A stretch of 56,613 nucleotides of DNA from a virus, in the IMG/VR virus record IMGVR_UViG_3300017769_000011, positions 1 to 56,613 of that record, one strand, 5' to 3'. The position numbers were made by a program, and so were the translations under genes. Below are positions 2,936 through 54,712 of the stretch, one piece after another; the first letter of the stretch is position 1, and the number at the start of each line of letters is the position of its first letter. Under the pieces are notes generated by a model that ran no database searches, had not been told where the DNA came from, and saw only the letters and a program-made list of their open reading frames with translations.

Positions 2936-3125
2936 ATCACATAAAGCATCTGGTGCTGAAAACATGCAACAGATGAAGACTACGTTGTTCTTCAAGGCAT
3001 GTAAAGAAGTTCTTGAAGAATATGGTCATGAGGATGCGGCATTCTACTTCGAGCAAGTGGAGACACACATGCGAAGTGGTGGTAGTCTTGATGCTAACAA
3101 GGCTGGCAATATCCTTGGTGTATAA
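2919..3125 (+). CDS. Hypothetical protein
   Basis: 68 aa, not recognised. Its C-terminal half (QVETHMRSGGSLDANKAGNILGV) lies directly against a TATAAATA late promoter that overlaps the stop region. The gene follows the small membrane protein with a 17-bp overlap, so it is probably co-transcribed from the early side. Confidence 0.55.
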   Translation: MQRVGKSHKASGAENMQQMKTTLFFKACKEVLEEYGHEDAAFYFEQVETHMRSGGSLDANKAGNILGV

Positions 3126-3128
3126 ATA
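3121..3128 (+). promoter_or_regulatory. T4-type late promoter (TATAAATA) before tmRNA
   Basis: An exact TATAAATA, the T4 late promoter consensus, about 13 bases before the start of the tmRNA acceptor piece. Late expression of tmRNA would fit ribosome rescue during heavy virion synthesis. Confidence 0.65.
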
Positions 3129-3140
3129 AAAGTATTCGTT

Positions 3141-3375
3141 GAAGCAAACCAAAAGGTATACTGGACGTGGGTGCAATACCCACCGCCTCCACCAAACCCC
3201 CTCTGAGGGGGCGAAATAGGTTCGACAGGTATTGATTAGGAATGTGGAGAATAGGTGTGGAAGCGACCTTAATCGTAACAAACTCGTAAGTGCAAACGAT
3301 AATTACGCACATGAAGAGTATGCGCTAGCCGCATAGTTTTCGGGGTCAGGGGACGCCTAGCAACAGAAGTCCTCA
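3141..3375 (+). ncRNA. ssrA: tmRNA, circularly permuted two-piece form
   Basis: The acceptor piece comes first: T-arm GTGGG-TGCAATA-CCCAC (3167-3183), acceptor strand CGCCTCC (3184-3190), then ACCA (3191-3194). A short hairpin spacer (about 3197-3211) follows, and then the coding piece, opening with GGGGGCG (3207-3213), which pairs with CGCCTCC (one G-U). GGTTCGACAGG follows, as in tmRNA D-domains. The resume codon GCA at 3292 starts the tag ANDNYAHEEYALAA, with TAG stop at 3334-3336. The gene order is that of alphaproteobacterial and some cyanobacterial tmRNAs; the tag is of the alphaproteobacterial kind. With SmpB, tmRNA frees stalled ribosomes and marks the peptide for proteolysis. No smpB is seen here. 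Outer ends are approximate. Confidence 0.92.
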
Positions 3376-3381
3376 CTTTTT
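3349..3381 (+). terminator. Hairpin plus T-run at the tmRNA 3' end
   Basis: GGGGAC (3349-3354) pairs with GTCCTC (3369-3374, one G-U), followed by ACTTTTTATT. It looks like an intrinsic terminator, or the 3' hairpin of the tmRNA coding piece that also ends transcription. Read-through would carry on into the pseudoazurin-like gene 14 bp later. Confidence 0.5.
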
Positions 3382-3394
3382 ATTAGGAGATACT

Positions 3395-3832
3395 ATGATT
3401 AGATTTATTACATTATTTGTGGCGTTAGCATTCACTACGCCAGCATATGCAGAAGAAACAATTATTGAAATGTTGAATAAACGAGACGATGGCGCTCGTA
3501 TGGTATATTCAGAAGATGTCACATACATTAATGCAGGCGACACAATCAAATGGTTGCCTACCGCCAAAGGCCATAATGTTGAGTTTATTGCAGGGCCAGA
3601 AGGTTATGAATTACCCAAACGTTCTAAGTTCAATAAAGAAGTCTCATTGACATTCGATGTGCCTGGCGTATATTTGTATCAATGCACACCCCATAAAAGT
3701 ATGGGTATGATTGCACTTGTTGTTGTTGGTAATGATACATCAAATTTGACACAAGTTGCGGCGACTAAAGTATTTGGTGGTAGTAAGAAGAAGTTACAAA
3801 CTCTTGCCGCTGGAGTATCTTTAGGCAATTAA
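3395..3832 (+). CDS. Pseudoazurin-like secreted type-1 copper protein
   Basis: 145 aa with a clear signal peptide (residues 1-19, ending AYA). Type-1 copper ligands are visible as His60 (KGHNVEF), Cys97, His100 and Met105 (QCTPHKSMGM). The Cys-x2-His-x4-Met spacing is that of pseudoazurins. These small periplasmic blue copper proteins carry single electrons, for example to copper nitrite reductase or peroxidases. A Lys-rich tail of about 30 residues follows the cupredoxin core. GGAG lies 6 bases upstream of the start. The gene stands between tmRNA and small membrane proteins. It is an unusual phage cargo gene; cyanophages carry plastocyanin instead, and the ligand spacing and leader here fit pseudoazurin better. 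Confidence 0.85.
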   Translation: MIRFITLFVALAFTTPAYAEETIIEMLNKRDDGARMVYSEDVTYINAGDTIKWLPTAKGHNVEFIAGPEGYELPKRSKFNKEVSLTFDVPGVYLYQCTPHKSMGMIALVVVGNDTSNLTQVAATKVFGGSKKKLQTLAAGVSLGN

Positions 3833-19241: not shown

Positions 19242-19507
19242 TACGCTAAGTCCTTATCGTGATTTAAGTTGCCCTTTTTCTTTTTTACAATAAATGCATT
19301 AACTCGTGCATATCCCCACTGAGAAGGTGTTGTGCCAGGCCTGTGTCCAGTTCTCCATGCGGCAACACCACGGTCAAAGACTTTCTTGAGTGTTCCATAA
19401 GAGATACCAGACTTCGATGCTTTCTTTGCAAGTGCCTCATTTTTTTCCTGAAGAGACTCGTCCAGTCTCTCTGCATAAAATTTTCTAAAGGTTTTTCTGC
19501 CACTCAT
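19241..19507 (-). CDS. DUF5824-like protein
   Basis: 88 aa. ASKSGISYGTLKKVFDRGVA followed by AWRTGHRPGTTPSQWGYARV is a highly conserved phage motif (DUF5824-type). The N-terminus, FRKFYAERLDESLQE, resembles the capsid-targeting peptides of its neighbours. It overlaps the nucleotidyltransferase gene by 4 bp and joins the next gene end to end. Function not established. Confidence 0.75.
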   Translation of the reverse strand: MSGRKTFRKFYAERLDESLQEKNEALAKKASKSGISYGTLKKVFDRGVAAWRTGHRPGTTPSQWGYARVNAFIVKKKKGNLNHDKDLA

Positions 19508-21000
19508 GGTTGTGTCTCTCTGTTTTTTTGTTGTGCTTTTGCGAGTCGTCTTGCATCTCTTGCTTTATCAAGAGTTGCACGATATTGTTTTTTCAAGTCT
19601 TCTTTATCATCTTTATAATCAGTTCTTATTTTTATAACCTCTGGGTCAGTCTCAGCCTTCAACTCAAGATGTTTTGGAAGAAGACCTTTCTTTATCATCT
19701 GATTCATATACTGTAGAACTTGTCTTGGAGATTCGACACCAAGTTCATGTCTCAGAAAATCATACGCACCTGATTGTCCTGCCTTCGGATTCTTACGTCT
19801 CCAATCAAGATACAATCGAACCGCCTTCTGATATTTCTTTTTGTTTACAATTTTATCCAATGCTTTATCTAAGGCTGGACTCAACACTCCTGTCGCAGAC
19901 TTCGTGCCAAACGCACCAGTGCTACCTATCTTTTCATCAAACATCTTCTTATATGCTTTGGTATACTTTGATGGTTTGGTCTCTGCACCCTTATCGCCAG
20001 GCGCTGGTTTGTATGCAGATGGGTCATCATCATCCTTTGCAGTGCCTTTCTTGAAATGTGCGGCACGTTTCTTCTTGGTTGACTTTGACATGTCATCGCC
20101 TTCAGCATCCTTCGCATAATACTTTGCAGGCTGTGTTCCTTTTACATCCTTACCAATCTCTTTGTCCTGACGTGCTTTCTTCTCGACCAGTTCTACATCG
20201 TCTAACCACTTGCGATATCTTTTTTGATTCACTTCTACAATGACATAGTTCGCACCAAGCATAGAGACAATACCAACCTCTCCACTTTCTTTGATAATAA
20301 CATCATCACCGATTTCAAACAAATCACCTGAGACATATGCCTCACGAGTATCGTCTAATTTACCTAAATCGATATGACGTTTGAAAGAACGTTCTTCTTT
20401 GATACCAAGTCCTGCTCGAACTTTGTTAAAGAGTGTGCGAGTATCTTTGTCAGAAAATCCTTTGGGAACACCCTGTGCGAATGCCGCATAGTCATTATCC
20501 TTTGCTGACGCACGTTGCTTGGATGCAGACATTCCTTCAACACCCTCTGCATCAGGGTCACGTTGACCAGCAGATACAATATTGATTGTCTCGAAGTTAT
20601 AAAAACCATGTTTGGCTTTCTTACCATTGTATTTTTTCAATAGAGTTTCGAACTCATTCAAACGGTCTTGACCGACAACCATGTTGATTTTACGATATCC
20701 CAAATCATAAAGTTTTGCGGCTACGTCAAAAACATTACGAATCTTTTTATCGGCAATGATATTGCGACCATGTTTGGGAAACATCTTACGAAGAGTTTTG
20801 ATTTTATCAGAATAAGACAATGGGTCTTTCTCACCTGTTGTCTGAGATACAAAGATTTTATAATCTGCACCTCTCGCCTTTTTAACAATCGTATCGATAA
20901 CTTTACCATGACCAATTGTCGGAGGATTCATTCTACCAAATGTAAAGAATACCTCACGTTCCGACTCAACCAGATACGATTTAAAATTCTTAATTACCAC
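19504..21000 (-). CDS. Nucleotidyltransferase (HxGH cytidylyltransferase-like) with long tail
   Basis: About 498 aa from a GTG at 21000; the open frame extends to 21072, but an earlier start would overlap the upstream gene more. FFTFGRMNPPTIGHGKVIDT holds the TxGHG variant of the HxGH nucleotide-binding motif. INMVVGQDRLNEFETLL and a MSASKQR segment (like the ISSTxIR motif) follow, so an adenylyl- or cytidylyltransferase core is likely. The last 300 residues are charged; KSGISYGTL-type repeats are absent, but GQSGAYDFLRHELGVESPRQ looks folded. The start VIKNFKSYLVESE resembles the T4 capsid-targeting peptide with an LVE cleavage site. Confidence 0.75.
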   Translation of the reverse strand: MVIKNFKSYLVESEREVFFTFGRMNPPTIGHGKVIDTIVKKARGADYKIFVSQTTGEKDPLSYSDKIKTLRKMFPKHGRNIIADKKIRNVFDVAAKLYDLGYRKINMVVGQDRLNEFETLLKKYNGKKAKHGFYNFETINIVSAGQRDPDAEGVEGMSASKQRASAKDNDYAAFAQGVPKGFSDKDTRTLFNKVRAGLGIKEERSFKRHIDLGKLDDTREAYVSGDLFEIGDDVIIKESGEVGIVSMLGANYVIVEVNQKRYRKWLDDVELVEKKARQDKEIGKDVKGTQPAKYYAKDAEGDDMSKSTKKKRAAHFKKGTAKDDDDPSAYKPAPGDKGAETKPSKYTKAYKKMFDEKIGSTGAFGTKSATGVLSPALDKALDKIVNKKKYQKAVRLYLDWRRKNPKAGQSGAYDFLRHELGVESPRQVLQYMNQMIKKGLLPKHLELKAETDPEVIKIRTDYKDDKEDLKKQYRATLDKARDARRLAKAQQKNRETQP

Positions 21001-21436
21001 TACCGCCGCCTTTTTTCTTTTCAATCTCTTTCTTACGAATCTTCGGAAGCATCTTCCTCGCAAGTTTATCAATCTTTGGTTTCATCTTATCTAGACGTTT
21101 CTCAATATCTGTTCTTCGTGCTAATCCAAGGTCACTCTTATCTTGACCCTTTGTTATTTTCTTAGCAAAGAAGTTCCTTGCTTGTTTGGCAGCTCTTTTC
21201 TTGAGAACATCAACAGATGCAACTTTTCTCTCTGCTCTCTTACGACCAAGAGCAATTTTTGCTTTCATCTTTTTCATCTGACGAGATTTTGCCATGCGTT
21301 GTTGCACAGTGAGTGCCTCATAAGGGCCTTCACCATCATCACGTTTACGTCTTTTGGCATTGTATGCTAACTGACCATCACCTGTTTCAGTGTAGTCAAC
21401 GGTAAGAAAATCTTTAAAACCTAATGGTTTTGGCAT
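20990..21436 (-). CDS. Very basic conserved phage protein
   Basis: 148 aa. TVQQRMAKSRQMKKMKAKIA followed by GRKRAERKVASVDVLKKRAA and TKGQDKSDLGLARRTDIEKR make a highly positive helical protein that recurs in marine T4-like phages. It ends GGGSGN. It starts MPKPLGFKDFLTVD, a weaker version of the capsid-targeting pattern. Its charge would suit packing against DNA in the head. It overlaps the nucleotidyltransferase start. Confidence 0.6.
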   Translation of the reverse strand: MPKPLGFKDFLTVDYTETGDGQLAYNAKRRKRDDGEGPYEALTVQQRMAKSRQMKKMKAKIALGRKRAERKVASVDVLKKRAAKQARNFFAKKITKGQDKSDLGLARRTDIEKRLDKMKPKIDKLARKMLPKIRKKEIEKKKGGGSGN

Positions 21437-21441
21437 TTGGT

Positions 21442-22662
21442 CTACCTCTTTGGTTTATCCCATCCCTTCAGCACATCAGGACTGAAGTTGTTATACGAAA
21501 ATTCAAGGCGGTCAACCAACTTGACCGCATCACCACCTAATTTGTCAATCGCAACAAAACCTTCCGCACCTGTAGTCTTGTAACCAGTTTTGGTTTTTAC
21601 AAAAGCGTCATAGTTTTGTATACTATTAAGTTTATTTATAAGTTTTAATTTTGCTAATACAATATTTTTCTGTAGTTCAAACATATTGACGAGAGACTTC
21701 TTGTTCTTGTTTGAAAAAAAGGTGAGAATATCGTCTAATTTCTTTTGTTGAGTCGCTTTACCCTTCTCACTCTTTCGTTTTTCTATCTCTTTTGCGAACT
21801 TATTCTCAATCCATTTGATAAGACCTGTGACATGTCTACGACTATCAGGTATCATCTGTCCTTCACGCACATATGTATTGTTGTATTGTTCGATGAGTTG
21901 TGCAAGTTCTTGATTGTTCTCTAGTTCACGCAGTGTCGAACCTGCAATCTTATTGAATATCTTACCAGCCGTTGACAGGTTCTTGGTAACTTCGGCAGTC
22001 TCTTTGTCATCCATAGTTGCACCACCGACATCACGCAACATCGCATCTGCTGAGTAAACATTCTTAGATGACTTGAACTTAGATACATCAACACCATACT
22101 TTGCTTTCATCGACTCGAAGTCTTTACCTGTATAGGTTGTGTGCCAAACAATACCAATCTGTGCTTTGCGTATGGTATCTGCCTGTTCGTATGGAACAGC
22201 ATAGATAATTGTATTGGGGTGAAAGGTTGTGTATTTCTGTCCATCGATTTTCTTCGTCTCAACGTCTCCTTTTGAGAACAAGAAGTCTCCTTGAATAACA
22301 CCCTTGATATTAAGGTCTGGTAGATACTTCAACGCAGCCTTCATCTTATCTGCAAGGTCACCAGACATATCTGCATCAATCTCTGCATTGGTTTTATAGA
22401 CCTTTGGATTCTTAGCAAAGATACCTTTCTTTGCGACAAAGAACTCACCATCACGAGGGTCTTGACCACAAAAGATTGCAGGCGCACCATCCCACTTGGT
22501 AGATAGTTTACTTTTAGACTGACCACCTAACATATCACGCAACTCACGCAATGCATTGATTGCCTGTCGTGTTCCATTCACACCACCATAGAGAACCTTA
22601 TCCTCGATATGGGTCATGTGAGTGTTCTTCTGTTCTGTTATATAATTTCTAAAACCAACCAT
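21442..22662 (-). CDS. DUF6267 protein with nucleic-acid-ligase-like motifs
   Basis: 406 aa. STKWDGAPAIF (near residue 57) carries KxDG, the lysine-adenylation motif I of DNA/RNA ligases and capping enzymes. VIQGDFLF (near 141) resembles motif III, and TGAEGFVAID (near 368) resembles motif IV (EGxV). DRLEFSYNNFSPDVLKGW closes the protein. The N-terminus, FRNYITEQKNTHMTHIEDKV, matches the DUF6267 family of T4-like phages and includes a possible capsid-targeting peptide with ITE cleavage site. Ligase-type catalysis is inferred from the motifs only. Confidence 0.7.
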   Translation of the reverse strand: MVGFRNYITEQKNTHMTHIEDKVLYGGVNGTRQAINALRELRDMLGGQSKSKLSTKWDGAPAIFCGQDPRDGEFFVAKKGIFAKNPKVYKTNAEIDADMSGDLADKMKAALKYLPDLNIKGVIQGDFLFSKGDVETKKIDGQKYTTFHPNTIIYAVPYEQADTIRKAQIGIVWHTTYTGKDFESMKAKYGVDVSKFKSSKNVYSADAMLRDVGGATMDDKETAEVTKNLSTAGKIFNKIAGSTLRELENNQELAQLIEQYNNTYVREGQMIPDSRRHVTGLIKWIENKFAKEIEKRKSEKGKATQQKKLDDILTFFSNKNKKSLVNMFELQKNIVLAKLKLINKLNSIQNYDAFVKTKTGYKTTGAEGFVAIDKLGGDAVKLVDRLEFSYNNFSPDVLKGWDKPKR

Positions 22663-23236
22663 TGTCGTAATCTTCTTTATATATTTTTCTTATATCATCT
22701 ATCATCTTGAGTGATAAATCTTTCTCTTTCCAAATCGATTTTGATATTGTAGCCTTTACTCTATCAAGTTCACAATCAATCTCATTCTCAATAAATGTCA
22801 CACATTCCTCAAAGTTTTCAAAATCAAATACCTTATCATACTGACTTAGGTCACCCCCACATTCATATTGAGAACGAAACTCTGGTCTTAAAGGCCAGTA
22901 TTTTCCACCATTTATAATCTTTCCTATTTCCCATTTAGTCCAATCTGGAACTTTTTCATTATATCTTGCTTTCATAAAACCATAAAAGTTTATTGAAAAA
23001 TTCACTGCACTTAAATATCTTTTTATCGGGTCTCTCTTTATCGTTATTCTTTTTACATTCCGAAACTCATTTGAGACCATAGAATTTTGTAAAGTCAAGT
23101 CATACCAGTTTGAGGTAACTTGTTTACTCTCAATGCCATTTAGATGTGACCACATAATCTTGAGTGATGACGAACAATTTTTCGGTATCAAACAAACATC
23201 TAAAACATCATCAAAGTATAATACTTCACTAACCAA
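22649..23236 (-). CDS. Sulfotransferase-family protein
   Basis: 195 aa. LIPKNCSSSLK (residues 16-26) is a 5'-phosphosulfate-binding loop (PKxxSSS type). RITIKRDPIKRYLSAV (near 63) is the 3'-phosphate-binding strand with Arg-Asp-Pro. Such enzymes move sulfate from PAPS to a hydroxyl on a glycan, lipid or small molecule. It overlaps both neighbours by 8-14 bp. It is out of place among virion-type genes, far from the glycan island at 32.9-51.8 kb, but may act in the same chemistry. Confidence 0.7.
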   Translation of the reverse strand: MVSEVLYFDDVLDVCLIPKNCSSSLKIMWSHLNGIESKQVTSNWYDLTLQNSMVSNEFRNVKRITIKRDPIKRYLSAVNFSINFYGFMKARYNEKVPDWTKWEIGKIINGGKYWPLRPEFRSQYECGGDLSQYDKVFDFENFEECVTFIENEIDCELDRVKATISKSIWKEKDLSLKMIDDIRKIYKEDYDNGWF

Positions 23237-24539
23237 CTTTTAATCCATTATAAAGTGTTTTCAAACTCCATTGTTTAAGTTTACCACCTGAACTCGAACG
23301 AACCGACATTGCAAGCGTTACCTTCTCGTCTCCCGACCTCAATTCAATAAACCAGTTCTGTTTCGAACTCCGAGATGAATATGACTTCACGAATCTAACC
23401 TGTGGTAGAAATACTCCGAGTTGGTCTTTGTCTGTTATCTCTTCATATGTTCCACTCTTCTCTATTGCTTTAATAACAATAGTCGGAACATCAGGTGCAT
23501 CTCGAAGTATTGCCTCTTTGATATAGTTCAAAGTCGCATCTTTGTTCTGATTAAATCTTTCAACCAATCCCTGACGAACAATCTCCAGATATTCATCATA
23601 GAGTTTGTTTTGTTCTTTGGTCGGAAGTTTATTGATGGTTGCGATTGCTTTTGTTTTATCAGGGTGACGGCCGCCTTTGCCACCATCGTGATTACCATAC
23701 TTAGGAAAATCAGGTATCTTTGAATAAACCTTATCATATACTTTTTTTCGAAGGGCCTCTTTACCTTTAGCGTCATTAAAAGAAGGGCCACTTCTCTCGT
23801 TCACAAATACAGTATAATGATAAGTGTTGAGTTGAGGTTCTTTGGTTTTCTTACCACCAGACTTGAGTGATGCACCAAGCATCTTTCCATCTTGATATTC
23901 AATAAACATATCGCCTGGATGATTTTGTGGGACACCTTTTGGTTTTGCTCGATATCCCCAATACACTCTTCGTATTGGTTTATCTTTATTTTCATCAATC
24001 AAATAGTTGTAAATCGAAATTGCAGCCTTCATCTTTTCGAAATATTTGGATGATGAGTCTGCTCTCTGTAATGTATCTTTTGCGGCCGCTTGGTCTTTAG
24101 CACCTACACATTTAAGTTTGCGAGTATCAACTGAGAGTAATCTTTCCATTAATTTGTCAATGTCTTTGTCAGACATACCTGTCGGTTTGATTTGACGTTC
24201 AAACATAATACAGGGAAAGAGTTCGGTGATGCTTGCATTGAGTGTAGATTCTCCCATGCCGCCCTTTTTGGGTTTTACGAGAATTATAAATTTACGACCT
24301 TCATGTTCTCCGTAAATAGGGTCAACCGAAGATGCGCTTGTTTCTCTTTTTTCAGCACTAATACCTGCATTCTTCAGTCTACGAAGAATCTCATCTCGGT
24401 CAGTTTCACGGTCATCAGACGTAACACGAAATTCTATTCTCGATTTCTCACTTGCAGATTTCTGAGTATACTCAAATCCTGAAAACACATCTCCAGCGAG
24501 TTCAAAGTCTTCGACTAAGTAGTGATTAAAAGATTTCAT
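23229..24539 (-). CDS. Nuclease-like virion-associated protein
   Basis: 436 aa. GDMFIEYQDGKMLGASLKSG (near residue 215) looks like the Asp...Ser-x-Lys core of restriction-like nucleases, and RRVYWGYRAKPKG precedes it. The N-terminus MKSFNHYLVEDFE closely resembles the T4 capsid-targeting peptide, with LVE as a likely cleavage site. A late promoter stands 36 bp upstream. The nuclease call rests on one motif and is tentative; the family is present in other marine T4-like phages. Confidence 0.6.
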   Translation of the reverse strand: MKSFNHYLVEDFELAGDVFSGFEYTQKSASEKSRIEFRVTSDDRETDRDEILRRLKNAGISAEKRETSASSVDPIYGEHEGRKFIILVKPKKGGMGESTLNASITELFPCIMFERQIKPTGMSDKDIDKLMERLLSVDTRKLKCVGAKDQAAAKDTLQRADSSSKYFEKMKAAISIYNYLIDENKDKPIRRVYWGYRAKPKGVPQNHPGDMFIEYQDGKMLGASLKSGGKKTKEPQLNTYHYTVFVNERSGPSFNDAKGKEALRKKVYDKVYSKIPDFPKYGNHDGGKGGRHPDKTKAIATINKLPTKEQNKLYDEYLEIVRQGLVERFNQNKDATLNYIKEAILRDAPDVPTIVIKAIEKSGTYEEITDKDQLGVFLPQVRFVKSYSSRSSKQNWFIELRSGDEKVTLAMSVRSSSGGKLKQWSLKTLYNGLKVG

Positions 24540-52467: not shown

Positions 52468-53148
52468 TTAACTTCTTTTCTTCTTCTCACGTTCCTGTTT
52501 AATCCACTTCTTTGCAAGTGCATTGTCAGGTTCTCTATCAATAAACTTTTTAGCATCACGATATGCACGAACAGTTTCTTTTTCGGTATTTTTTATATCC
52601 GTGTTGTCAACTATAGTAAACTTCTTCTTACCAAATATCTGTTGTAGAGTTCCAATATTCTTTTGAACAGTTGTCCAGTATTTTGTAACCTCTTTGTCAC
52701 CCAGAGTTCTATCTCTACCTTTATCTCTATCAATCGCAACTTCGAGAGTGGTATTCACAAGAATCATCATGGTATCATATCCGAGGTCTTGTAATGCTTT
52801 TGCTTGTTTCTTAATCTTGTTGGGGTCTTTACCAGTTCCATCGATAACCAAACCTAAACGACCTGAGATATACATCTCTTGTTTCTTTGCTGTTAATCTT
52901 TTGGAGCGGTCACGAATTGTTTGACCTTCGTCAGAGAAGATTTCATCCGATGTCATCTTCTTGCCAGCCTTTTTCATTGCGGTTTCAAATGCATCGTCAG
53001 AGTTTACGACTTTCATACCCAACGCAGGAAGACCAGTCTTACCTACAATGAATGACTTTCCAGAGCCAGGCCCGCCTGCAAGGAATATCGCCTTGAAGAT
53101 TGCAGGGTCGTCCACACCCTCTTGAATGAAATTTCTAAACTTTAACAT
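52468..53148 (-). CDS. P-loop kinase (zeta-toxin/polynucleotide-kinase-like) with capsid-targeting-like start
   Basis: 226 aa. IFLAGGPGSGKSFIVGKTG (near 20-38) is Walker A; KVVNSDDAFETA and LGLVIDGTGKDPNKIKKQAK give the acceptor-side Asp motifs; DRDKGRDRTLG is the lid with Arg residues. The protein fits P-loop kinases related to zeta toxins and polynucleotide kinases. The start MLKFRNFIQEGVDD resembles the T4 capsid-targeting peptide with IQE as cleavage site. It shares one base with the gene before it on this strand. Confidence 0.7.
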   Translation of the reverse strand: MLKFRNFIQEGVDDPAIFKAIFLAGGPGSGKSFIVGKTGLPALGMKVVNSDDAFETAMKKAGKKMTSDEIFSDEGQTIRDRSKRLTAKKQEMYISGRLGLVIDGTGKDPNKIKKQAKALQDLGYDTMMILVNTTLEVAIDRDKGRDRTLGDKEVTKYWTTVQKNIGTLQQIFGKKKFTIVDNTDIKNTEKETVRAYRDAKKFIDREPDNALAKKWIKQEREKKKRS

Positions 53149-53942
53149 TAATATACTCTCATTAGATTATTGTGTAGTTTATCAAATCTTTGATACACAT
53201 TAGACTTTCGAGCCATGTCTTCGGTTTCGACCACAGTTTTTAAATTAGATAACAACTTATATTTATCATTTATCTCATCTCCAACAATTCTTTCGTTGTC
53301 ATCAAGATAAAAATCTATCAGATGAAAATCTCCATTAGTAAATTGAACAAAGTCATTCTTTAGGTCATTGATATTGAAAACACCATTTGAATAGTTATGT
53401 ATACCTGTAAGTTGAATTAAGTCGTAGTTAGGATTATCGATTGTAAAAGTTACATCCTCATCCCCTAATCTATACTGACGACTCATCTCAATCGTGGGTA
53501 TATTATAGTGGTCTATAATTCTTTGAGCAACAACATCTCTATAATTTGTTGGAACACAGACTGTAAAGTTAACATGATAGTTTATAACTTTTGCAAGAAC
53601 GGCTGGCAGGATTCCGACAAGAGTTGCATCTCCATGATAGAAGTTTTGTCCATCAACATTGTAGGTTCTGTAAAAAGACTCTGAGGTGAACTCTGGAATT
53701 ACAAGAACATTTGTTCTCTGTAAAAACGCAGGAATAGATATGAGAGAGGCGGCCGCTATGAGACCATTTAGAAAAAAAGTGGACTTATCAGGGTGAGAGA
53801 AGTTATCATCTATGATATTTGTATCGTCAAATAGATAATATAAATCCTCTGATAAATCTACAAAAAAATCATTTGGTATCAATTGAGATTTGAACTCATT
53901 TTGACTCAGAATGACTGTTGGAACTTTTCTATTTCGAGACAT
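53148..53942 (-). CDS. Conserved hypothetical protein, possibly virion
   Basis: 264 aa, likely alpha/beta. FFLNGLIAAASLISIPAFLQ, then FYHGDATLVGILPAVLAKVI, and KVINYHVNFTVCVPTNYRDV. Shares ends with its neighbours (base overlaps), so it is co-translated with 53942-54712. I do not recognise a family; a baseplate- or head-associated protein is possible. Confidence 0.5.
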   Translation of the reverse strand: MSRNRKVPTVILSQNEFKSQLIPNDFFVDLSEDLYYLFDDTNIIDDNFSHPDKSTFFLNGLIAAASLISIPAFLQRTNVLVIPEFTSESFYRTYNVDGQNFYHGDATLVGILPAVLAKVINYHVNFTVCVPTNYRDVVAQRIIDHYNIPTIEMSRQYRLGDEDVTFTIDNPNYDLIQLTGIHNYSNGVFNINDLKNDFVQFTNGDFHLIDFYLDDNERIVGDEINDKYKLLSNLKTVVETEDMARKSNVYQRFDKLHNNLMRVY

Positions 53943-54712
53943 TAGTAAACCTTATAAATCTCGTTTGAACGAACTTGTTCAATTGTTTTTCTAAAATTAT
54001 GATATGGTTTTGTTCTATCAGCCGAGAGAGTCCAATTTAAATCCAACATAATCGAGGACATTCTATTGAAACTGGATTTTGATGATTTACTACGACCTGT
54101 GATTATACGACTGTTTCCTCGATACACGTCAATCAAATCAAATGTATCTGTGCAATATTTAGAAAACTTTTCTTTTACTGCATTGATAGAGTGTTTACCC
54201 TTTGCTTCAGAGCCAAGAATAACCACAGCATCAAACTTAATGTCTGTGTTCAGTTTGAATGGTTGGTCAAGTCGAAATACACTCTCTGAACGAATACCTT
54301 GAATACCATATGCATCATATAGTTTTTGATATACACTATTAGAATTTTTAACCTGAGTGACATATATGTTACCATCTGATTCATTTAACTTATGAATGAT
54401 TGGAAACATATGGTCACCAGAACTTATTGTTGGACTTTCATCTGTGATAAGTCTAGGGTATAATGAGTCCTCAAATGATGTCACAACAAGAATATTCTGA
54501 TATCCATTGACTGATACTACTCCATCAATAATCGAACCATCACTCATGAGAGATGCAATACCATTGAAACCATAATCTCTTTTGGTAATCTCTTTGAGAT
54601 TTTCTCTCATTTTAATAAAAATATCTATCTTAGAAGCAACTGAATAGAAAGACCCAAAGGTAGTTTTAGTGTTTGAGTCATACCCTCGTGGCTGTTGTTT
54701 GACTAGAAACAT
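53942..54712 (-). CDS. Conserved hypothetical protein
   Basis: 256 aa. YDSNTKTTFGSFYSVASKID near the start, VAVNGY-like segments (GVVSVNGYQNILVVTSFEDS) and a basic middle (GNSRIITGRSKSSKSSFNRM) and C-terminus. No catalytic motif. It follows the small late protein at 54717 by 4 bp, in the late minus-strand operon. Confidence 0.5.
   Translation of the reverse strand: MFLVKQQPRGYDSNTKTTFGSFYSVASKIDIFIKMRENLKEITKRDYGFNGIASLMSDGSIIDGVVSVNGYQNILVVTSFEDSLYPRLITDESPTISSGDHMFPIIHKLNESDGNIYVTQVKNSNSVYQKLYDAYGIQGIRSESVFRLDQPFKLNTDIKFDAVVILGSEAKGKHSINAVKEKFSKYCTDTFDLIDVYRGNSRIITGRSKSSKSSFNRMSSIMLDLNWTLSADRTKPYHNFRKTIEQVRSNEIYKVY

Follow-up and report, generated by a model that had tools for sequence, protein, structure and literature searches.

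A predicted ligase-type protein family linked to a kinase and a nucleotidyltransferase in T4-like marine phages, and its possible role in the repair of nucleic-acid ends

Introduction

Do some marine phages carry into the cell, along with their DNA, a set of enzymes that mends broken nucleic-acid ends? The question is raised by IMGVR_UViG_3300017769_000011, a virus record, incomplete at 56,613 bases, that we analyzed whole (the window) and whose closest relatives are T4-like marine phages. An earlier note on this DNA had proposed that a P-loop kinase and a KxDG/EGxV protein are the two halves of an end-healing and sealing system like that formed by T4 Pnkp and Rnl1, and that both, together with an HxGH nucleotidyltransferase and a nuclease-like protein, carry a capsid-targeting-like peptide and are delivered in the phage head. 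The features concerned are listed in Table 1.

Table 1. Features of the window discussed in the text. A slash marks the Glu-X junction at the end of the peptide.
Feature	Position	Strand	Remarks
Kinase, 226 aa, P-loop GGPGSGKS	52468..53148	(-)	polynucleotide-kinase/zeta superfamily; catalytic-Asp candidate D51; lid arginines R141, R145, R147
Kinase N-terminal peptide, capsid-targeting-like, MLKFRNFIQE/G	53119..53148	(-)	E10 invariant in 18 relatives
DUF6267 protein, 406 aa, predicted covalent nucleotidyltransferase (ligase-type)	21442..22662	(-)	helical insertion between motifs IIIa and IV
DUF6267 capsid-targeting-like peptide MVGFRNYITE/Q	22633..22662	(-)	residues 1-14 pLDDT <50
DUF6267 motif I, K56-W-D-G, candidate adenylated lysine	22486..22497	(-)	K56, D58 invariant in 49 sequences
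DUF6267 motifs IV (E367-G-F-V370) and V (V380-K381-L-V383)	21514..21564	(-)	E367, G368, V370, K381, V383 invariant
Basic protein, 148 aa, between DUF6267 and nucleotidyltransferase	20990..21436	(-)	homologues hold the same position
HIGH-superfamily nucleotidyltransferase ("cytidyltransferase"), FGRMNPPTIGH, tag NFKSYLVE	19504..21000 (~21000)	(-)	internal start at 21000
436-aa tagged protein MKSFNHYLVE, slot upstream of DUF6267	23229..24539	(-)	PD-(D/E)XK-like motif E106...GD210...S224LK226
Gene pair (264 and 256 aa) immediately upstream of kinase	53148..54712	(-)	adjoin kinase in most close relatives

ARAGORN placed a tmRNA gene with the tag ANDNYAHEEYALAA at 3100-3427 of the window and a tRNA-Gly gene at 2616-2689, and PADLOC returned no defence match. 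A sulfotransferase-like gene (PF03567, 8e-5) lies at 22649-23236, between the genes for the 436-residue protein and DUF6267; it is not a general member of the gene set described below.

Results

DUF6267 Has a Predicted Ligase-Type Fold

The KxDG/EGxV protein of the earlier note is 406 residues long; its KWDG occupies residues 56-59 and its EGFV residues 367-370. It belongs to DUF6267 (PF19782, 6e-107), a family present in 468 phage records, mostly of cyanophages, to which no function has been assigned; the literature that we searched held no paper on it, and we found no plasmid members. A full Pfam scan of the protein returned DUF6267 alone, with no ligase model (PF01068, PF09414, PF09511) up to E 1. 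Comparison of the DUF6267 profile with single T4 ligases by hhalign gave nothing significant, although motif IV of T4 Rnl2 did align with EGFV, and a search of PDB sequences with the profile yielded coiled-coil and PPR noise only.

We found that K56, D58, K79, Q124-G-D126, E367-G-x-V370, K381, and R385 are invariant in an alignment of 49 DUF6267 sequences (relatives 32-81% identical). Within motif I, K56 and D58 are present in 49/49 sequences and G59 in 48/49, the remaining sequence having X. The candidate for motif III, Q124-G-D126 (49/49), lies on the strand that follows motif I/Ia and has Asp in place of the catalytic Glu. E367, G368, V370, and K381 of motifs IV and V are likewise kept in 49/49 sequences, at a spacing of 14 residues and on strands 368-372 and 379-382; motif V has one Lys only. 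A compact homologue of 295 residues, S-CREM2 gp87, keeps KIDG, QGDF, EGFV, and IKLVDR.

An AlphaFold2 model made with the 49 sequences had a pLDDT of 86.7 and a pTM of 0.81, with residues 1-14 disordered and a helical insertion of ~150 residues between motifs IIIa and IV. The earlier note had named structural comparison with ligases as a test that might refute its proposal. When the model was compared with known structures using VIA-align, rows 1-17 were all Rnl2-type RNA ligases, with Z scores of 7.1-8.0 over 165-192 residues at 3.7-4.2 A (Naegleria Rnl, Z 8.0, 185 residues, 3.7 A; TbREL1, 7.7; T4 Rnl2, 7.4), and such values of 7-8 are modest and support the fold level only. These rows were followed by DnaK helices, which are helix-on-helix matches, and then by DNA ligases. 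Matches in Foldseek were weak (best ligase E 0.037), the top two rows being DNA ligases. In contrast to known DNA and RNA ligases, the model has no OB fold or other domain after motif V; it continues with one helix (385-393) and 13 further residues and ends ~25 residues past the motif. Judged from this model, DUF6267 very probably has a ligase-type fold. By predicted fold and motifs we call it a member of the covalent nucleotidyltransferase superfamily, and a member of neither the DNA ligase nor the Rnl families; it is predicted to be a previously unrecognized ligase-type enzyme.

The Kinase, DUF6267, and the 436-Residue Protein Carry a T4-Type Capsid-Targeting-Like Peptide

The capsid-targeting sequence of T4 acts in targeting mainly through residues 4 and 7 and in processing through residues 8 and 10 (PMC9026906); IPII and IPIII both begin MKTYQEFIAE. 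All four of these positions are matched in the window kinase (F4/F7/I8/E10), the DUF6267 protein (F4/Y7/I8/E10), and the 436-residue protein (F4/Y7/L8/E10). Of the 86 window ORFs of at least 100 residues, 3 match [FY]xx[FY][ILVM]xE exactly close to their start, compared with a mean of 0.12 in shuffled sequences, and none of 2000 shuffles reached 3. The peptide that had been noticed on the kinase and the KxDG protein is confirmed, as is that at the start of the 436-residue protein; the nucleotidyltransferase has it only from an internal start, close behind which NFKSYLVE lies.

Across 80 related loci, the tag is present on 70/80 DUF6267 genes, 51/81 nucleotidyltransferase genes, 7/12 genes of PHROG 2496, and 23/44 copies of a small neighboring gene. 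Among other ORFs of these loci it is found in 30 of 1295, most of these being further long proteins from the slot that precedes DUF6267. An S77 prohead protease is encoded in 15/15 related phage records and was not seen in the incomplete 56.6 kb window record.

In the window, the slot upstream of DUF6267 holds the 436-residue protein, a member of PHROG 2496, a family of unknown function. Its E106, GD210, and S224LK226 are invariant, with Ser where the PD-(D/E)XK motif has Asp/Glu. The matches listed in a fold search cover only a small N-terminal domain (residues 2-92; Pol-beta-like sheet, Z 7-9, ~85 residues) that is missing from shorter relatives. The description of this protein as nuclease-like is a label by motif only, and the fold search neither shows nor excludes a nuclease. 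Unrelated tagged proteins swap between phages in the slot (window 23229-24539; L014, L029, L042, L053, L066, L073, L030), with PHROGs 2496, 8438, 1462, 3060, and 22045 represented, as if this were a variable place for cargo; Pfam gave no function for the other proteins found there.

Tagged Relatives Are Found in Virions

The annotation of S-CREM2 has 219 gene numbers, and 52 of its proteins were detected in virions (PMC10665884). Six S-CREM2 proteins start with the tag pattern: gp6 (SAM hydrolase), gp13, gp14 (kinase), gp136, gp154 (cytidylyltransferase), and gp175. Five of them (gp6, gp13, gp14, gp136, and gp154) are in the virion (P 0.003; starts were checked by hand and the P value is approximate). 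The tag rule selects the SAM hydrolase, kinase, and cytidylyltransferase of S-CREM2, all of them virion proteins, and, by a later tag, a Cas9-like protein: gp12 (OR473000, 7704-10313; locus L384) has 869 residues, is reported in the virion, has FASFMAE at residues 19-25, and may be head-targeted too.

The cytidylyltransferase of S-SZBM1, which begins MRFRQFIIEA, is also in the virion (PMC9146016); in both phages this tagged enzyme was identified in virions by mass spectrometry in the published work. Two other tagged S-SZBM1 proteins were undetected there, and S-SZBM1 by itself shows no significant link between tag and virion (1/3, P 0.36). A cytidylyltransferase has been found in S-SM1 virions (PMC3037559) and an NMNAT-like protein in those of S-SCSM1 (PMC9602691); the authors of PMC10665884 and PMC9602691 state that carry-over during purification is possible. 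The DUF6267 proteins of S-SZBM1 and S-CREM2 are untagged, their start being that of the domain, and are missing from the published virion lists.

The peptide might instead be some other conserved docking or structural element. Glu10-Gly11 is retained even in fusions that have the kinase in their interior, and the kinase fold itself may therefore account for part of the pattern; the two undetected S-SZBM1 proteins also fit this reading. Against it stand the exact match at the four T4 positions, the low model confidence of DUF6267 residues 1-14, the loss of the tag from cyanophage DUF6267 proteins that keep the domain, and the correlation of tag with virion in S-CREM2, and we consider it quite improbable. 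Head delivery of the tagged proteins is, in our assessment, probable, and the tag would then be a sequence rule for predicting the proteins that are brought into the cell by marine T4-like phages. For DUF6267 itself, we infer head delivery in the tagged clade only, because the protein is untagged and undetected in the two cyanophage virion proteomes; untagged cyanophage DUF6267 would act inside the cell. The earlier idea of a head-delivered set is narrowed in this respect, and is strengthened by the T4-type tag and the virion location of related tagged proteins.

The Kinase Resembles Both T4 Pnk and Zeta Toxins

The kinase matched AAA_33 (8e-12) and Zeta_toxin (PF06414; 2e-10, 40.9 bits with a cut-off of 22.3), both of which pass the cut-off, and PHROG 505 "polynucleotide kinase" (1.6e-6), in agreement with its previous reading as a polynucleotide-kinase/zeta-like protein. 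No match to AAA_28, which we take to be the Pfam family containing the NadR kinase, was obtained up to E 1. In a profile search of PDB, the best match was the zeta toxin 1gvn (3.8e-8), which is partial and stops at residue 130, whereas the match to T4 Pnk (7e-5) covers the whole domain (19-184). An alignment of 18 sequences shows no variation at K31, D51, R141, R145, and R147. D51 and R141/R145/R147 line up with NRDD and RNSKR of T4 Pnk, D51 corresponding to the catalytic Asp, T4 D35, and E55 (17/18) occupies the position of the substrate-phosphate residue R38. A HAD 3'-phosphatase domain is absent from the kinase, and the ORF finishes after the kinase domain. The substrate may be either a polynucleotide 5'-OH or a zeta-like small molecule, as the profile matches both zeta toxin and T4 Pnk, and we put the chance of a nucleic-acid substrate at about one in two.

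Gene Order and Fusions Link the Kinase, DUF6267, and the Nucleotidyltransferase

In the window, the kinase lies ~30 kb from the genes for DUF6267, the nucleotidyltransferase, and the 436-residue protein, and in Melnitz it is likewise apart from the others. Pelagibacter phage HTVC008M has, in succession, DUF6267, a small protein, the kinase, and the nucleotidyltransferase. A nucleotidyltransferase-kinase fusion begins at the end of DUF6267 in one locus (L147), and four others (L125, L127, L128, L130) encode proteins of >1100 residues with a kinase domain beside DUF6267; the two that were scanned (L127 and L130) also contain the nucleotidyltransferase. DUF6267 is itself fused to the nucleotidyltransferase in PHROG 455 (phrog_455) and in a 591-residue protein of S-PM2. 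A functional tie among the three proteins is supported by this gene order and these fusions.

Several arrangements in other phages involve the same domains. The 1143-residue protein of L127 (3593-7021) combines the nucleotidyltransferase, an HExxH metalloprotease-like stretch, the kinase, and DUF6321. In another phage group (L132-L145), the kinase directly follows the gene of a PD-(D/E)XK-type exonuclease (PHROG 298). Agrobacterium phage Atu_ph07 (locus L007, 411-6590) has five consecutive genes whose products start with M(R/K)W(E/N)(Q/D)L(T/N)E and contain YRGM motifs, STS being present in one or more of them. These products have the look of ADP-ribosyltransferases. The last of the five is a fusion to the kinase, and its internal LTELFDT/LNELFDT repeats are similar to the beginning of T4 Alt (MELITELFDE).

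A further possibility is that each tagged protein is injected as an effector in its own right, that the kinase acts like zeta on some small molecule (UDP-GlcNAc, for instance), and that the appearance of a repair kit is a coincidence of tags. The Zeta_toxin score, the zeta toxin as best PDB profile match, the tags on unrelated proteins, and the fusion of the Atu_ph07 kinase to an ART-like domain all favor it. We nevertheless find it unlikely: it is the T4 Pnk match that spans the domain, and fusions join the kinase to the nucleotidyltransferase and place it by DUF6267.

The nucleotidyltransferase matches a PHROG cytidyltransferase (4e-65), its motif FGRMNPPTIGH being the TxGH form of the HxGH that had been described. 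The match to CTP_transf_like is weak for the window protein (0.12) and better for L147 (1.9e-7). A search of PDB with its profile found no NMNAT at E 0.1 and nothing useful.

This enzyme could alternatively be an NMN adenylyltransferase that serves NAD or nucleotide metabolism, with NadR-like fusions to the kinase and with DUF6267 as an unrelated neighbor. The fusion order recalls NadR, the authors of cyanophage proteomes proposed NMNAT for the virion protein (PMC9602691, PMC10665884), and jumbo phages have HIGH nucleotidyltransferase-kinase fusions for NAD synthesis (PMC7824862). However, neither the AAA_28 search with the kinase nor the PDB search with the nucleotidyltransferase bore this out, and the presence of a ligase fold within this cassette would go unexplained. 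We judge this assignment decidedly doubtful.

DUF6267 Occurs Where Canonical Ligases Are Missing

A canonical ATP-dependent DNA ligase (PF01068) was found in 1 of 26 distinct DUF6267 records, that of DLP_6; some of the records are fragments. No NAD-type ligase was found in the 12 DUF6267 records tested further (0/12), and in these records the two RNA ligase families gave nothing above cut-off, with one partial sub-threshold match (G001). The gene g30 has been reported absent from cyanomyoviruses (PMC2984593), in which DUF6267 is near-universal. We had considered that an annotated ligase might explain a lack of DUF6267 in S-CREM2, and dropped this idea: the compact DUF6267 protein gp87 is present, and the "DNA ligase" gp190 has no PF01068 match. 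In P-HM2, HTVC008M, Melnitz, and S-SZBM1, DUF6267 adjoins UvsX and primase-helicase genes. Ligase-type activity of DUF6267, if true, would account for the missing DNA ligase in abundant ocean phages.

DUF6267 might be a plain replacement for the DNA ligase gp30 that seals nicks in replication and recombination inside infected cells; the tag and the kinase would then be incidental. Its company of UvsX and primase-helicase genes, its near-universality in cyanomyoviruses, the lack of a canonical ligase in 25/26 records, and its untagged state and absence from the virion in two cyanophages all agree with such a role. Other observations fit it poorly: DUF6267 has no OB fold, its best structural matches are RNA ligases and not DNA ligases, it is fused with and adjacent to the nucleotidyltransferase, most of its genes in this clade bear the capsid tag, and DLP_6 has both DUF6267 and a canonical ligase. 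We regard plain replacement as somewhat unlikely.

Discussion

We propose that T4-like marine phages share a single conserved cassette, made up of DUF6267, the HIGH-type nucleotidyltransferase, and the kinase, that would process and seal nucleic-acid ends, be they of RNA or of DNA. In this proposal, the kinase would turn a 5'-OH end into a 5'-phosphate, and K56 of DUF6267 would take AMP from ATP and hand it to the 5'-phosphate end, which would then be sealed. The nucleotidyltransferase, which is fused to each of the other enzymes in some phages, may have these same ends as its substrate or may provide an intermediate that is adenylated or cytidylated. The tag would be cut after Glu by the phage prohead protease and the tagged proteins packed in the head; injected with the DNA, they could act before phage genes are expressed. 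The window phage may in this way inject a nucleic-acid end-repair kit with its DNA.

An end-healing and sealing set that is head-delivered in the tagged clade is the likeliest of the readings considered, and for this proposal as a whole we see the chances as evenly balanced. A bolder form, which we offer tentatively as possible though not probable, is that T4-like marine phages pack and inject a complete end-healing and sealing machine (the kinase, a new OB-less ligase family, the nucleotidyltransferase, and a variable tagged partner) that, before phage gene expression, repairs the breaks left by host nucleases or by defences that cut tRNA, and that untagged DUF6267 is the long-missing ligase of cyanomyoviruses.

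A close functional parallel would be the repair of tRNA by T4 Pnkp (pseT) and RNA ligase 1 (rnlA), which likewise pairs a 5'-end kinase with an ATP-dependent ligase fold. The window kinase shares with T4 Pnkp the Asp of NRDD and the lid RNxxR but is without the phosphatase domain, and DUF6267 contains a helical insertion and ends without a C-terminal domain. The reading first proposed for this locus is supported in part, by the predicted ligase-type fold, the gene order, and the fusions; its analogy with T4 is incomplete, these two domains being absent. The window set also adds a HIGH nucleotidyltransferase, and its tags suggest head delivery. Rnl2-type RNA ligases (T4 Rnl2, TbREL1, Naegleria Rnl) are the best structural matches to DUF6267 and share with it KxxG in motif I, EGxV in motif IV, and the Lys of motif V; DUF6267 differs from them in having QGD for (x)GE in motif III, a single motif V Lys, and the IIIa-IV insertion, and in giving no match at the sequence level. 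With T4 DNA ligase gp30, DUF6267 has in common the ligase superfamily and a complementary occurrence, but not the OB fold or a match to PF01068.

T4 IPI-III and Alt have the same kind of N-terminal peptide, with aromatic residues at positions 4 and 7, an aliphatic residue at 8, and Glu at 10. The predicted cargo of the window phage consists, in contrast, of repair-type enzymes, and its packaging is a prediction from the tags. NadR and the NAD synthesis systems of phages resemble the cassette in the fusion of a HIGH nucleotidyltransferase to a P-loop kinase, whereas the cassette kinase is of the AAA_33/zeta/PNK family and is linked to a ligase-type protein. Another close comparison is the virion cytidylyltransferase of cyanophages (T4-GC190; S-SM1, S-SZBM1, S-CREM2), a homologue of the window nucleotidyltransferase that is found in virions and is tagged in S-SZBM1 and S-CREM2; its authors read T4-GC190 as an NMNAT or a cell-wall enzyme, and the DUF6267 gene beside it is untagged.
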